Source: an uncultured Acidobacteriaceae bacterium
GTDB taxonomy: Bacteria > Acidobacteriota > Terriglobia > Terriglobales > Acidobacteriaceae
Assembly (NCBI GenBank): GCA_903849645.1
Contig: CAINJJ010000009.1
Span: 62,001 to 126,000, forward strand
Length of the DNA stretch: 64,000 bases
Direction of reading: 5' to 3'
Below the pieces are notes generated by a model. It saw only the letters and a program-made list of their open reading frames with translations. It did not search any database and had not been told where the DNA came from. Below, one piece after another: positions 5,092 to 58,433 of this stretch (positions are counted from its first letter, which is position 1; the number at the start of each line of letters is the position of its first letter). Made by a program: the position numbers and the translations under genes.

Positions 5092-8000
5092 TCAAAAGCT
5101 GATCCGCACGCCGACCTGCGCCGCGAACGGAATCCCCACCGTCGTTCCCGGCCCAAAGAAGTCCCCCAGCGCCCCGCCCGCCACGCGCAACTGCCGCAGG
5201 CTCCGGATGGGCTCGGTCGCGCTGCAGTCGGCGTTGGCGCAGAGGTCGGTCACATTGCCCGCCGCCACCTCCTCCTGTGGAACAGGCAGCGCCGCCACGT
5301 CGGTCACAAAGTTCGCCCCCGGATTGTTCCGGTTCAGCAGGTTGAAAAACTCCACAAAGGGCCGCACCGAGCAGCGCTCCTTCAGGGCAAACGGCCGGCT
5401 CAGGCTCAAATCCACCTGCACATAGGGTGTGCCGTAAAACGTGTCGAGCCCCACCTGCCTGCCGTTGATCACCGCCCGGTTGTTGGTGCTGTCTCCCGCG
5501 CCCGACACCGGCACGCTCGTCGTCAGCGTATAAGGCCGCGCGCTCTCGGCCTGCGAAAGCGTCGTCGCCTCCACCCCGCCCGGCAAGTGAACCGTCCCCG
5601 CCACCACCCACCGGCTCCGTACATCCTCGCCCGACCGTCCGTAGTCCCCGGCGCCGAAGGGATGCAGCGGGTTGCACACCCCGTTCACATAGTCGAAGAG
5701 CTCCCCCAGCACGCAGCCCCACGTCCTGGCGCTCCCCACCGTGTAATGACTCACCAGGTCAAAGCGTCGCGCCACACTCCCATGAATCTCGAACTCCACC
5801 GCCGTGTAACTCGACCGGTTGTCTGACCGGAAGACCGTGAAATCCGGCACCGCAGCCCGCTGGCTCGCCACATCCGCCGCAAACAGCGGAGAGCTCACCG
5901 TGAACCCAGCCTGATACTGGTAGCGCCGGTAGCCGTGATTGCCCTGCTCGTGCACCAGGTCCGCGCTCACCGTCCAGCCGGCATGCGGGGCAAACTCCAC
6001 TCCCCCCGTGGCGTGAATCGCGTATGGCGTCTTGTAGTTCGCGTCGATGATCGAAGCGCTTCCCGCAATGTCGCCGATGCCGCCCGCCGTTGCTGCCCCC
6101 GGTACGCATCCCGCATCGCCCGGCTTAGCGCAGCCGGCTGTCAGCGGCGCGTTCACCGCCTGCAGCGCCGTTACCCAGCCGCTCTGCGCCAGGTCGTTGT
6201 AATAGAGCCCGAAGCCGCCGCGCAGCACAACCTTTCCCGAGCGCCCCAGCGCGTAGACAACGCCCACCCGCGGCGCAAACTGCCTGCGATCATCGCGCGG
6301 TGCCCCGCTCACCAGCGGAATCTTCAGCGCCGCCATCGTCAGCAGTCCCGCGTTCTCCCCTTGGTCTCGCCCAGAGCCCAGGAACAGCCCATAGGTCGTA
6401 TCCCAGCGCAGCCCAAGGTTCAACGTAACTCCGCGCGCCAGCTGCCACTCGTCCTTGGCATAGACTCCAAGACGATCTACATTCTGCGAGAAGCTTCCAT
6501 CGCCTGCCGGCGTGGTCACGCTCCCCGCCGCATAGTCCTCCGCAAACTGGGCCGGGCTGCCCAGGTAACTCGCAGGGTCCTGCGGAAACGACACCAGCGT
6601 CTCCTGCGTCGCAGCCAGCGCGCCGCCCAGCACCGGCTCGTGAATCGCGCTCACGCCAACGGTCGTCGCGTGACGTCCTGAAGAACGCAACAGGTCATAG
6701 CGCAGCTGATACTTCTGCTGATTGCGCAGCGTCGGAAACGCAGTAATGGGCGTGACAAACTGGTTGTCGCCAAAGGTCTCCAGCCCCGAGGTCGTCGCCG
6801 TCGTCACGGTAAAAGGAAACGCCAGCGCAAAGCCCAGATTCACGTTGCGCGCCTCCGTCAGGTGCAGCCCGCCCGCGCCCAGCGCCAGAGTTCCCAGCCA
6901 CTTCGCGTTGAAGATGAAGTCGTTCCCCGCCGCAGCGTTCAGATAGTTGTTGTGCGCCGTCGCGCCTGTCGAGGGCAGCGCCGCCTGCTCCACCAGCGCG
7001 TTGTGGGTCAGATAGCTGTCCGCTGCGCCCCGCGCAAACCAGTGGGATCGGTCCGATTGCGTCCAGTCCAGACGCGCGAGGCCCATCCAGTCGCTGAAGG
7101 GAACTGCAACGTTGGCAGGCACGGCGATCGAAGATACGCCCGGAATCAACCCTTGTCTCGCCAGTTCACTCAGCGCAGCAAACTGCCTCATGCTGGCCGC
7201 GCTATAGGCAACGCTCGCCTCTTCGCGCACCGCCTCCAGCGAGGCAAACGCAAACAGCCGGTCGTTGACCAGCGGCCCGCCCGCCGTGGCCGCGTAGTTC
7301 TGCCGCGAAAACGGCTGCTTCGGATTGGGCGATGGATTGTCCACCGGCGAGCGCGCGTTGAGCGCCGCATCCCGCTCATAGAAGGCCAGCCCCTCGTGCC
7401 AGTCGCGGCTCCCGCGGCGCGTCAGCAACTCAACCGAGGCGCCCGTCGTGCGCGCGCTCTCCGCATCCTGTTGGGCGGCCTTCACTGAGAATTCCTGAAT
7501 CGAGTCCGGCGAAAAATTCTGCAGGAACCCGCCAATCCAGTCGTCTGAGTTATCCATGCCATCCACGGAGGTCTCAAGGTTGAGCCCCGAGCTTCCGCCT
7601 GAAGCGACTGCCGTGATTCTCGCCTTGGTTGGGTCGGACGGCTCCACCGGCTCTGTGCCCGGCGCAAGATAGGCCAGGTTGGCAAAACTCCGCGCCGCCA
7701 GCGGAAGACTCTCAATGTCCTGCCGCGAGAGCACCGCCCGATGCGTCGCGCTCGCCAACTCCACCGGCTGCTCCGCGATCGTCGATCCCTGCGCCTGTAC
7801 CGCAACCTGTTGCGCTTGCACCGCGGGCACAAGCCTCACCGTCAACTCGCGCAGCACGTCCATGGCCACAGAAACATCCGCCGCCGCCGGCGCGAACCCA
7901 CCCGCCTCCACGCGCACCCGATAGCGCCCCGGTGCAAGCGCATCCACGCGCCACTCGCCCCGATCATCGCAGTGCGCGCTGCGCCGGACGGGGGACGAGT

Positions 8001-55632: not shown

Positions 55633-56373
55633 ATGCTTCCCATCGGCTCCCACCCGGCCTGGCACCCGGTCTTTGAGACCCTGGCCTACGCCGTGGGCTA
55701 CGCGGTCTTTCGGCGCGCGCGCCACCGCCAGGGCGACGTGGTGGCCGAGCCGCAGCGCTGGACGGTGCTGGCCGCCGCTGCCGTGGGCGCCCTGGCCGGC
55801 AGCCGCCTTCTGGGGCTGGCCGAGCAGTGGCCCACCGTCTGGGCAGCCTGGCGTGCCGGGCGCCTCTGGGCGCTGCTCTTCTCCCCCGGCGGCAAAACCA
55901 TCGTCGGCGGCCTGCTGGGCGGCTGGCTGGGTGTTGAAATCGTCAAGAAACTCTGCCGCATCCGCCGCCGCACCGGCGACCTGTTTGCCCTGCCCCTCTG
56001 CGTGGGCATCGCCATCGGCCGCATCGGCTGCCTGGTGGCGGGCCTCGCCGACGACACCTTCGGCAAGCCCACCACCCTGCCCTGGGCCGTTGACTTCGGC
56101 GACGGCATCGGACGCCATCCGGTGCAGGTCTACGAGATTCTCTTCCTCGGTCTGCTCGGAGTCCTGGTCAGCACCAAGGCAAAGCTCCCAGAGGGCGCGC
56201 GGTTCCGCATCTTCATGGCCGGTTATCTGGCCTGGCGTGTCGTCATCGACTTCCTCAAGCCGCAGCCTCTCGTCGGCGGGCTCAACCTGATTCAGTGGTT
56301 CTGCCTGGCGGGAATTCTCGTCCTCGCACTGGACTGGATGCGCGGAAGAAAGGGCGGCCATGAACATCTCTGA
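55633..56373 (+). CDS. Lgt-like (prolipoprotein diacylglyceryl transferase family) membrane protein with altered active-site motifs
   Basis: 246 aa, ATG 55633. About seven transmembrane helices follow the Lgt plan and the family block GRIGC...GLADDTFGKPTTLPW...HPVQVYE (about 129-168) is clear. Two positions differ from classical Lgt: the GRxGN Asn is Cys133, and the His of the FHGG motif is replaced by Val91 (IVGGLLGG). The C-terminal Arg in WRVVIDFLKP (Arg202) is kept. Classical Lgt moves diacylglyceryl from phosphatidylglycerol to the lipobox Cys. With these changes a different diacylglyceryl-type reaction is possible. It overlaps the next gene by 14 bp and lies in one operon with the radical SAM gene. 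Confidence 0.78.
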   Translation: MLPIGSHPAWHPVFETLAYAVGYAVFRRARHRQGDVVAEPQRWTVLAAAAVGALAGSRLLGLAEQWPTVWAAWRAGRLWALLFSPGGKTIVGGLLGGWLGVEIVKKLCRIRRRTGDLFALPLCVGIAIGRIGCLVAGLADDTFGKPTTLPWAVDFGDGIGRHPVQVYEILFLGLLGVLVSTKAKLPEGARFRIFMAGYLAWRVVIDFLKPQPLVGGLNLIQWFCLAGILVLALDWMRGRKGGHEHL

Positions 56374-56677
56374 TCTCATAAAGAATGGCATTCCCAAGAC
56401 ACTGCTGATTCTGGCGGCCATCTTTCTGGCAGCCTCGGGGCTGTGCGGGTTTCAGTGGGCCATGATGGACAAGTTCCGGAACGGCTCGGGTGTGATCCTC
56501 ATCCCGCTGGGCGTGGCGGAGCTCATCGTGATGGCTCTCTCGGCAGGCGGCATCGCGGTCCTGCTCATTCTCTGGCCCGCCTCGGTCCTGTATGCCCGCT
56601 TTGGCAAGCCGCCCGAAGAAGAGGTCCAGCGCCTGTTCGACGACACCGGCGAAACAAAGGGCGATGACCCGCGCTAG
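56360..56677 (+). CDS. Small two-TM membrane protein A
   Basis: 105 aa, ATG 56360, overlapping the Lgt-like gene by 14 bp. Two hydrophobic helices (about 14-37 and 47-76) are joined by a short loop and the C terminus is charged (PEEEVQRLFDDTGETKGDD). Its pattern, GLCGFQ after helix 1 and a second helix rich in Leu/Ile/Ala, recurs in the next gene (GMCGLN), so the two look like paralogues. No named family is recognised. Position between the Lgt-like and radical SAM genes suggests a role in the same pathway. Confidence 0.7.
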   Translation: MNISDLIKNGIPKTLLILAAIFLAASGLCGFQWAMMDKFRNGSGVILIPLGVAELIVMALSAGGIAVLLILWPASVLYARFGKPPEEEVQRLFDDTGETKGDDPR

Positions 56678-56704
56678 ACTTGTTTGCGTTGGGGTAAGGC
56701 GGCA

Positions 56705-57019
56705 ATGAGCAAACCTCTGGTGGACCGGATACCATTCGCGAAGATCGTTACCGTGCTCGCCATCGTCTTCGGCGTGGCGATCGGGATGTGCGGGCTCAAC
56801 TTGCTCATCGCCGTGCCGCTAGGGCATGTACCGCAATCCGCAAGCGCGGTGATCGTTGCACTCATGTTCATTGAGGCCGGCGGTATGCTCCTCTCCGCGC
56901 TCGGCCTTTTTGCAGTGGGCGCACTGTGGCTGATTCTCAAGATCGCCGCCGGCCTCAGCCCCGCAGACTCCGGCCCGCACGATGCTTCATCGCCTGGAGA
57001 TGAGGATTCCCATGACTGA
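56705..57019 (+). CDS. Small two-TM membrane protein B (paralogue of A)
   Basis: 104 aa. ATG 56705 has GGGGTAAGG upstream; a seven-codon extension is possible. Two TM helices (about 11-34 and 45-76) and an acidic, Ser-rich tail. The layout and the GMCGLN after helix 1 mirror protein A. Its 3' end overlaps the radical SAM start by 8 bp, which implies translational coupling. Confidence 0.68.
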   Translation: MSKPLVDRIPFAKIVTVLAIVFGVAIGMCGLNLLIAVPLGHVPQSASAVIVALMFIEAGGMLLSALGLFAVGALWLILKIAAGLSPADSGPHDASSPGDEDSHD

Positions 57020-58433
57020 CAAACTCCGCCCTTATCTCTACTACGACGTCGCCATCTCCATCTGCTCCACCTGCTACCGCCGCGTGGACGCCAAAATCGT
57101 CTTTGAAGACGGCAAGGTGTGGATGCTCAAGCGCTGCCCCGAGCACGGCCATGCCCGCGTCCTCGTCGCCGACGACGTCGACTACTACCGTCGCGCCCGC
57201 GAGGTCTTCATCAAGACCCCCGAGCAGCCCATGGTCTACAACACGCCCGTCCAATACGGATGCCCCTACGACTGCGGCCTCTGCCCCGACCACGAGCAGC
57301 ACAGTTGCCTCACTCTGGTGGAGATCTGCGACGCCTGCAACCTCACCTGCCCCATCTGTTACGCAGGGTCAGGCCAGCACCGCACGGAGTTCCGCTCTCT
57401 GGAACAAATCGAAGCCATGCTCGACTGCGTGGTGCGCAACGAGCGTGAGCCGGACGTGGTGCAGATCTCCGGCGGCGAGCCTACCTTGCATCCGGATTTC
57501 TTCCGCGTCCTCGACATGTGCAAGCAGCGGCCCATCCGCCATCTGATGGTCAACACCAACGGCATCCGCATCGCCCAGGATGAGGAGTTCTGCAAGCGCC
57601 TGGCGAGTTACATGCCGCAGTTTGAAATCTACCTTCAGTTCGACTCGCTCCAGCGCGAGCCGCTCATGCAGTTGCGCGGCGCGGACCTGCGTTCCATTCG
57701 CGAGAAGGCGCTTGAACGGCTCAACAAATACGGCATCTCCACCACGCTCGTGGTCACGGTTGAGCGCGGCGTCAACGACGGCGAACTCGGCGCAATCATC
57801 GACTTCGCCCTCACCCAGCCTGCGGTGCGCGGCGTGACCTTCCAGCCCGTGCAGCAGGCCGGCCGTATGCAGGGGTTCAGCTCCGCCGAGCATCGGCTCA
57901 CGCTCACTGAGGTGCGCCGCCGCATCCTCGCGCAGACCAGTGTCTTCAGGCCTGAAGACCTCATCCCCGTGCCCTGCCATCCTGATGCGCTGGCCATGGC
58001 CTACGCGCTCAAGCTCGGCGCCAAGACAGTTCCGCTCACCGGCATGATTCCTCCCGATGTGCTCATCAACGGCGCAAAAAACACCATCGTCTACGAGCAG
58101 GAGCCGGGGCTGCGCGACCACCTCTTCAAGCTCTTCGCCACCAACCTCTCGCCGGCCACGCAAGCCTCAACCCTGCGCGAGCTGCTCTGCTGCCTGCCCA
58201 AGGTGCTCATCCCCAAAGACCTGGGATACAAGAACCTCTTCCGCATCCTCATCGTGCAGTTCATCGACGCCGAGGCCTTTGATGTGCGCAGCGTCAAGAA
58301 GAGCTGCATCCACATCGCGCACCCCGACGGCAAACGGCTCATCCCCTTTGACACCTTCAACATGTTCTATCGCGGGGACCTGGAGACCACGCGCCTCGCC
58401 GGTCTGCGCCGCCAGGAGATGGCCGCCGTATGA
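57012..58433 (+). CDS. Cysteine-rich radical SAM protein, tetraether-synthase (Tes/MJ0619)-like family
   Basis: 473 aa. ATG 57012 has GAGG eight bases upstream. Cysteine blocks in order: C18-x2-C21 and C42 (rubredoxin-like metal site; CPEHG), C84-x3-C88-x2-C91 (auxiliary cluster, GCPYDCGLC), C109-x3-C113-x2-C116 (radical SAM cluster, CNLTCPIC), then ISGGEPTLHP and a C-terminal DGKRLIPFDTFNMFYR block. This order matches archaeal tetraether lipid synthase Tes and its bacterial relatives, which join lipid chains by C-C bond formation; this is inference from motif order. Acidobacteriota make iso-diabolic and branched membrane-spanning lipids. It ends the Lgt-like/two-TM operon. Confidence 0.78.
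   Translation: MTDKLRPYLYYDVAISICSTCYRRVDAKIVFEDGKVWMLKRCPEHGHARVLVADDVDYYRRAREVFIKTPEQPMVYNTPVQYGCPYDCGLCPDHEQHSCLTLVEICDACNLTCPICYAGSGQHRTEFRSLEQIEAMLDCVVRNEREPDVVQISGGEPTLHPDFFRVLDMCKQRPIRHLMVNTNGIRIAQDEEFCKRLASYMPQFEIYLQFDSLQREPLMQLRGADLRSIREKALERLNKYGISTTLVVTVERGVNDGELGAIIDFALTQPAVRGVTFQPVQQAGRMQGFSSAEHRLTLTEVRRRILAQTSVFRPEDLIPVPCHPDALAMAYALKLGAKTVPLTGMIPPDVLINGAKNTIVYEQEPGLRDHLFKLFATNLSPATQASTLRELLCCLPKVLIPKDLGYKNLFRILIVQFIDAEAFDVRSVKKSCIHIAHPDGKRLIPFDTFNMFYRGDLETTRLAGLRRQEMAAV

Follow-up and report, generated by a model that had tools for sequence, protein, structure and literature searches.

An Lgt-like membrane protein, a small membrane partner and a radical SAM protein form a widespread cassette, here in an uncultured Acidobacteriaceae bacterium

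What could a bacterium make with an operon that combines an Lgt-like membrane protein, two small membrane proteins and a radical S-adenosylmethionine (SAM) protein? This question is raised by positions 55633-58433 of a stretch of 64,000 nucleotides (the window) taken from contig CAINJJ010000009.1 of an uncultured Acidobacteriaceae bacterium (assembly GCA_903849645.1). A first-pass annotation of this DNA had proposed that the four genes form a lipid-joining module built around a relative of the archaeal tetraether lipid synthase (Tes), and had connected it with iso-diabolic acid and branched tetraether lipids. The four genes are one copy of a widespread, unnamed cassette found in many unrelated bacteria, and its radical SAM protein belongs to the GDGT-MAS/TrsS superfamily, in which it forms a family of its own. 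The product is a more tentative matter, and could be either a lipidated small protein or a free lipid.

The operon and its recurrence

The four genes all lie on the + strand, and the tight packing reported in the first-pass annotation was found again: the gene of the Lgt-like protein (55633..56373; 246 amino acids) overlaps by 14 bp that of TM1, a small two-helix membrane protein (56360..56677; 105 amino acids), a 27-bp gap separates the latter from the gene of a second small membrane protein, TM2 (56705..57019; 104 amino acids), and the TM2 gene overlaps by 8 bp that of the radical SAM protein (57012..58433; 473 amino acids). The chosen gene starts match orthologues with identical first residues. 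The identities proposed for the two larger proteins also hold, since they score above cut-off against PF01790 (LGT; 84.4 bits for a cut-off of 24.9) and PF04055 (Radical_SAM; 83.2 bits), respectively, as does the presence of the two small membrane proteins.

A species-level scan, with one genome per species, yielded at least 565 confirmed relatives of the radical SAM protein, the best-scoring 80 of which (58-91% identity) were used for the neighbourhood counts. Their hosts belong to the Acidobacteriota, Bacillota (mostly Paenibacillus), Bacteroidota, Planctomycetota, Myxococcota, Cyanobacteria, Omnitrophota, Elusimicrobia and Proteobacteria, with the addition of one archaeal metagenome-assembled genome (MAG). 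An Lgt-like gene, recognised with the hidden Markov model of its family, is located nearby at 72 of these 80 loci, upstream on the same strand at 71 of them and about 2.3 kb downstream at locus L113, so that the operon does recur as a unit; among the eight loci devoid of this gene, L069 and L085 start at a contig end. Fifteen of the 17 other acidobacterial matches were also taken (L212 being probably the same record as L071), and an Lgt-like gene is present at 14 of these 15 loci (partial at one), together with a small open reading frame (ORF) at 11 according to an automatic test, nine of which are convincing on inspection. Clustering of the neighbours across the best 80 loci revealed no other consistently adjacent family, the third partner being too small and fast-changing to give a third large cluster.

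This third partner is represented in the window by both TM1 and TM2, which match one and the same ORF, located between the Lgt-like and radical SAM genes in relatives, and are therefore related to each other. Each carries a cysteine at position 29, within SGLC29G in TM1 (codon at 56444..56446) and IGMC29G in TM2 (codon at 56789..56791). A small ORF with at least two hydrophobic segments was found at 56/80 loci against 16/301 control genes, and a cysteine-bearing small ORF directly downstream at 50/80 loci against 17/276 control genes. The commonest contexts of the cysteine are NAAC-F, GLGIC-G or LGLC-G, and LTIC-G, and a canonical lipobox is present in 6 of 72 small ORFs. TM1 matches no Pfam or NCBIfam family above cut-off, and TM2 no Pfam family and only weakly, below cut-off, an NCBIfam one; among the small proteins searched, nine gave nothing informative above cut-off in Pfam except for the B-box finger of the L093 protein, and eight gave nothing above cut-off in NCBIfam.

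The partner varies in position and in architecture. In six loci of the Paenibacillus group (L093, L096, L105, L108, L115 and L117), it is encoded 5' of the Lgt-like gene; in L093 (6826-7083), a B-box zinc finger is fused ahead of the cysteine-bearing helix, and a similar cysteine-rich front can be seen by eye in L096 (6894-7163). At two beta-proteobacterial loci, L123 (6464-8004) and L131 (7186-8004), the Lgt-like gene is separated from that of the radical SAM protein by one or two additional ORFs, and a small membrane ORF bearing a cysteine is located upstream. In two close relatives of the window locus, L040 (6075-6830) and L043 (6772-7341), the small membrane proteins are followed, before the radical SAM gene, by an additional gene whose product has a lipoprotein-like signal (MGAC).

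The spread of the cassette is patchy and crosses phyla. In the genus of the window genome, G000 and five of the genomes G001-G035 carry intact copies (6 of 36), some of these genomes being incomplete. An operon remnant persists in G008 (L046, about 6420-7130), where codon ~109 of the Lgt-like gene is fused to codon ~338 of the radical SAM gene; this internal deletion indicates that both genes were lost together. A family member with 55.8% identity is encoded on the 1.07-Mb plasmid pPP1 of Persicobacter psychrovividus (L185, 6001-7380), whose record has hardly any annotated genes. The archaeal copy (L106) is carried by a Thalassarchaeaceae MAG whose sole PF01790 gene is that of the cassette, and either a real transfer or wrong binning could account for it. 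The genes flanking the operon in the window, of Ada type and KdsB type upstream and a convergent DAHP synthase gene, stand next to it only in some close relatives and are outside the gene set. Among the openly licensed PMC articles listed, no title or abstract opening describes a set composed of an Lgt-like protein, a radical SAM protein and a small membrane protein.

The Lgt-like protein

The AlphaFold model of the Lgt-like protein (pLDDT, the predicted local distance difference test score, 92.7) is nearest to Lgt (PDB 5azb; Z 14.1, root-mean-square deviation (rmsd) 4.2, 233 residues), the next structure having a Z of 7.9, and Lgt is the sole Foldseek match of this model below 0.001 (E 1.8e-6). 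Against the NCBIfam equivalog TIGR00544, the window protein scores 29.3 bits for a cut-off of 118.9, and the proteins of L073 and L114 score 47 and 33 bits.

In Escherichia coli Lgt, the phosphatidylglycerol (PG) site is lined by R143, R239, Y235, G154, E202 and R246 (PMC4728403). The equivalents of R143 (Arg130 in the window protein), R239 (Arg202), Y235 and G154 are present in all 73 Lgt-like sequences of the cassette and that of E202 in 71 of them, and the R246 column holds Lys or Arg in 73/73. The cassette proteins share this site and the fold with Lgt, and differ from it at three other positions, namely (i) the column of His103, which belongs to the HGGL region proposed to bind the lipobox peptide (PMC4728403) and is occupied by V, M, L or I in 73/73 sequences (His in 0/73; Val91 in the window protein), (ii) the column of N146, which is Cys in 73/73 (Asn in 0/73; Cys133 in the window protein), and (iii) the probable column of Y26, which is His in 70/73, the alignment being uncertain there. 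Y26, H103, R143, N146, G154 and R239 are reported as essential in E. coli Lgt (PMC13251419), and this set is incomplete in the cassette proteins since H103 and N146 are found in 0/73. Retention of the PG-site residues together with the change at the His103 column suggests that the donor site has been kept and the acceptor site changed.

These substitutions are not marks of the cassette family alone. Indeed, the loss of His103 and the N146C change are shared by other distant Lgt proteins, and Mycobacterium smegmatis MSMEG_5408 has both Y26H and N146C, like the cassette proteins (PMC13251419). In the window genome itself, another PF01790 protein (L139) has Cys at the N146 column and no His103, and the use of Cys133 and of the lost His103 as family marks was therefore withdrawn. 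The window genome encodes two further PF01790 proteins in all, both higher-scoring than that of the cassette, and another, higher-scoring PF01790 gene is present in 13 of 14 host genomes, i.e. in all the bacterial ones, the archaeal MAG having only that of the cassette.

The radical SAM protein

The solved structure nearest in sequence to the radical SAM protein is GDGT-MAS (MJ0619; PDB 7tol, 7tom; E 7e-68), and its AlphaFold model (44 sequences, pLDDT 85.8) superimposes on 7tom with a Z of 44.9 and an rmsd of 2.0 over 398 residues, against a Z of 19.5 for the next unrelated family. By comparison with the metal motifs of MJ0619 (PMC9433317), three N-terminal motifs are recognised: a rubredoxin-like motif, C18-x2-C21-x20-C42-x2-H45 (57063..57146), whose cysteines occur in 86/86 rows of the family alignment and H45 in 85/86; an N-terminal auxiliary cluster motif, C84/C88/C91 (57261..57284), present in 86/86 rows and accompanied by the likewise invariant His94 and His97; and the radical SAM motif CX3CX2C, C109-x3-C113-x2-C116 (57336..57359), also in 86/86 rows. 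Two rows of this alignment repeat contigs already represented by L039 and L042, so that 84 are distinct.

The cysteine order of Tes, attributed to this protein in the first-pass annotation, thus applies to the N-terminal half, in which all the GDGT-MAS motifs are found; the C-terminal set differs. Among the Tes C-terminal cysteine columns, column 326 holds Cys in 31/86 rows of the window family, and columns 431 and 447 in 0/86. All three hold Cys in 12 archaeal Tes (with one gap at 447), in seven acidobacterial proteins of 500-600 amino acids and 11 of 670-780 amino acids, in two TrsS and in two methyltransferase-linked proteins. Met439 is named as a ligand of the C-terminal cluster of GDGT-MAS (PMC9433317), and the three cysteine ligands are deduced from conservation. 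The Met439 column (415) holds Met in 64/86 rows of the window family (Val in the window protein) and in 12/12 Tes controls. The idea that the whole ligand set had been lost was withdrawn, given the frequency of Met at 415 and Cys at 326. The Tyr459 column of Tes is Ile, Met, Phe or Leu in the window family, and an insert of about 25 residues, which in Tes and its bacterial relatives follows the radical SAM domain and precedes the HPHC cysteine, is absent from the window family, from TrsS and from the L044 type described below.

Four other C-terminal cysteines are invariant in the window family (86/86 rows): C322 (57975..57977), C393 and C394 (58188..58193), and C432 (58305..58307), the last being shifted by +1 residue from the Tes C455 column. 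Outside the family, C322 recurs in some groups (11/11 of the P740 group of Tes-clade proteins), the methyltransferase-linked type shares C393 and C432, and C394 is found in no row compared. In the model, residues 372-400, which include C393 and C394, have a pLDDT below 50, and this pair is thus placed with low confidence. The window family does not have the Tes ligand set, and the alternative cysteines could hold a C-terminal cluster; judging from these sequence differences in the metal-binding cysteines, the enzyme probably does something other than stapling lipids.

The position of the family was examined in a 54-row tree, rooted at its midpoint. The window family forms its own clade (support 100/100), nearest to the methyltransferase-linked type (100/99), and these two groups and TrsS are split from Tes and the acidobacterial Tes-clade proteins (L600 and P740 groups) with a support of 99/95; long branches meet at the TrsS join, for which the program issued a warning. 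The comparison with the Tes profile, which the first-pass annotation had named as a check, gave 278 bits for the window protein, mainly over the N-terminal part, for a cut-off of 450 (NF045702), and 298, 271 and 308 bits for the family members of L073, L114 and L127; the acidobacterial control L051 passes with 589 bits. Against the TrsS profile (NF045646; cut-off 490), the window protein scores 308 bits over its full length and the same three members 338, 322 and 339 bits, and the control L048 passes with 604 bits. TrsS identity is ruled out by these scores. The family resembles TrsS in length, full-length profile match and side of the tree, whereas TrsS keeps the Tes-type cysteine columns (2/2) and has other neighbours; beside TrsS in L047, L048 and L050, a molybdopterin-type nucleotidyltransferase and a CoA-ligase-like protein were recognised by reading.

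The nearest tree relatives, with 38% identity, are encoded in L044, L045 and a Mycolicibacterium plasmid. Unlike the window family, they have Cys at 326, 431 and 447, and a methyltransferase instead of the Lgt-like and small proteins; in L044 (301-2672), L045 (337-2730) and L184 (5971-8339), the methyltransferase gene directly follows the Tes/TrsS-like radical SAM gene. On the plasmid of Mycolicibacterium vanbaalenii, the radical SAM and methyltransferase pair adjoins CcdA and a disulfide oxidoreductase.

The clade, the profile cut-off, the C-terminal cysteines and the distribution all argue against membership of the Tes or iso-diabolic acid pathway. Of the module announced in the first-pass annotation, the lipid-handling flavour is retained and the tetraether or iso-diabolic joining is not. 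Indeed, among acidobacterial genomes that are at least 90% complete, the cassette radical SAM protein occurs in 18 of 297, including 4 of the 36 of the host family, whereas a Tes-clade paralogue occurs in 139 of 297 and in all 36 host-family rows shown (the unmatched rows shown belong to other families; 138 unmatched genomes are not listed). In the window genome, outside the window, this paralogue is a protein of 711 amino acids (G000, contig C9, 374814-376946; L057, 6815-8947) with all the Tes-type C-terminal ligand columns, which scores 316 bits against the Tes model, below its cut-off but across the full profile. The distribution of iso-diabolic acid, which is widespread among acidobacterial subdivisions 1, 3, 4 and 6 (PMC13274423), agrees with that of the paralogue rather than with that of the window gene; the former is thus the better candidate for its synthesis. 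In 12 of 14 host genomes, i.e. all but two acidobacteria, the cassette protein is the sole match to the Tes model at E <= 1e-25.

Possible products of the cassette

From the gene association, the folds of the two larger proteins and the conserved residues, we infer a mechanism that is put forward, tentatively, as the preferred one. The Lgt-like enzyme would take a diacylglyceryl group from PG in the outer half of the membrane, by means of its conserved arginine pair, and would attach it to the cysteine that the small partner carries within the membrane, in a context other than a normal cleavable lipobox. The cytoplasmic radical SAM enzyme would alter the same partner, or its lipid, by radical chemistry (C-S or C-C), and the product would be a small membrane protein permanently bonded to lipid. 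The recurrence of the Lgt-like gene and the retained PG-site residues are consistent with such a lipidation of the partner. So is the presence, at 64/80 loci, of a small ORF whose hydrophobic helix contains a cysteine (one segment being enough, and positions upstream of or between the two larger genes being included), as counted by the automatic test, which takes any cysteine with hydrophobic surroundings and lets a few doubtful ORFs through. Furthermore, the motif cysteine lies in the outer half of the helix, as predicted by the positive-inside rule, at 41/46 loci against 17/47 for control cysteines of other membrane proteins, with a motif filter that was chosen after seeing the sequences and was not applied to the controls, and the active site of E. 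coli Lgt faces the periplasm (PMC4728403).

Besides the limits of these two counts, several observations weigh against lipidation of the partner: six of the 80 loci have upstream room and no Lgt-like gene (L103 still has the small protein), 16 of 80 have no such small ORF (some of them at contig ends), the small proteins may be subunits rather than substrates, the Cys at N146 and the loss of His103 also occur in other acidobacterial PF01790 proteins, including one in the window genome, and N146C homologues of Lgt are thought to be weakly active (PMC13251419). A more far-reaching version, in which a new post-translational lipidation has arisen, with an Lgt paralogue acting on an uncleaved intramembrane cysteine, the radical SAM enzyme then creating a C-S or C-C bond between the protein and a lipid tail, so that the two would be a single molecule inside the membrane, and the whole spreading horizontally among many phyla, is rather improbable.

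It is about as likely as lipidation of the partner that the product is a free membrane lipid. The Lgt-like protein would then move diacylglyceryl to a small acceptor or present PG, the radical SAM enzyme would change the tail or head of the lipid, and the small membrane protein would serve as a scaffold. The close match to the GDGT-MAS fold, the retained PG-site residues and the frequent Met at the Met439 column suit this possibility; the absence of the Tes-type insert from the window family, as from TrsS and the L044 type, does not, and a near-constant cysteine in an otherwise fast-changing partner is left unexplained by it.

An unlikely alternative is that the small protein is a structural or redox subunit whose cysteine, with that of the Lgt-like protein, would bind a metal or form a disulfide, in a complex from which the radical SAM enzyme would receive electrons or a cofactor. 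The invariance of Cys133 would agree with this role, as would the six Paenibacillus-group loci with an upstream partner, the tested one of which (L093) has a B-box zinc ribbon. However, ordinary acidobacterial PF01790 proteins have Cys133 as well, and it is therefore not special to the cassette. Less likely again is a system for the maturation of a cofactor or metalloenzyme, which is the apparent role of the sister TrsS systems: the window protein scores higher against TrsS than against Tes, and TrsS and the L044 type are on its side of the tree, but it falls below the TrsS cut-off, the neighbours of TrsS in L047, L048 and L050 do not form a conserved cluster beside the window family, and the TrsS join of the tree is the place where long branches meet. 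Weakest among the lipid readings, and distinctly improbable, is a Tes- or Mss-like module that would build iso-diabolic acid or branched tetraethers by linking fatty acid tails, which was rejected on the clade, the cysteine columns 431 and 447, empty in 86/86 rows, and a distribution that also includes many Bacillota, Bacteroidota and other hosts with no second Tes-model match, despite the GDGT-MAS fold, the N-terminal motifs, a different set of cysteines that may still bind a cluster in the C-terminal part and the capacity of acidobacteria to make iso-diabolic acid (PMC13274423). The likeness to the Mss of Thermotoga (Sahonero-Canavesi et al. 2022), a radical SAM enzyme reported to act on lipid tails (PMC13274423), is one of description.

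These results bear on how bacterial genomes are surveyed for lipid genes. Bacterial Tes homologues are counted as potential makers of membrane-spanning lipids, such as those behind the palaeothermometers based on branched glycerol dialkyl glycerol tetraethers (brGDGTs), with identity cut-offs as loose as >20 or 30% (PMC8941075, PMC11868695). The window family comes within such cut-offs while having different cysteines and partners, and can thus inflate these counts. The locus also points to an acidobacterial protein that does fit, the Tes-clade paralogue. As for the cassette itself, if lipidation of the small partner did take place, an unsuspected protein modification would exist in common soil bacteria.

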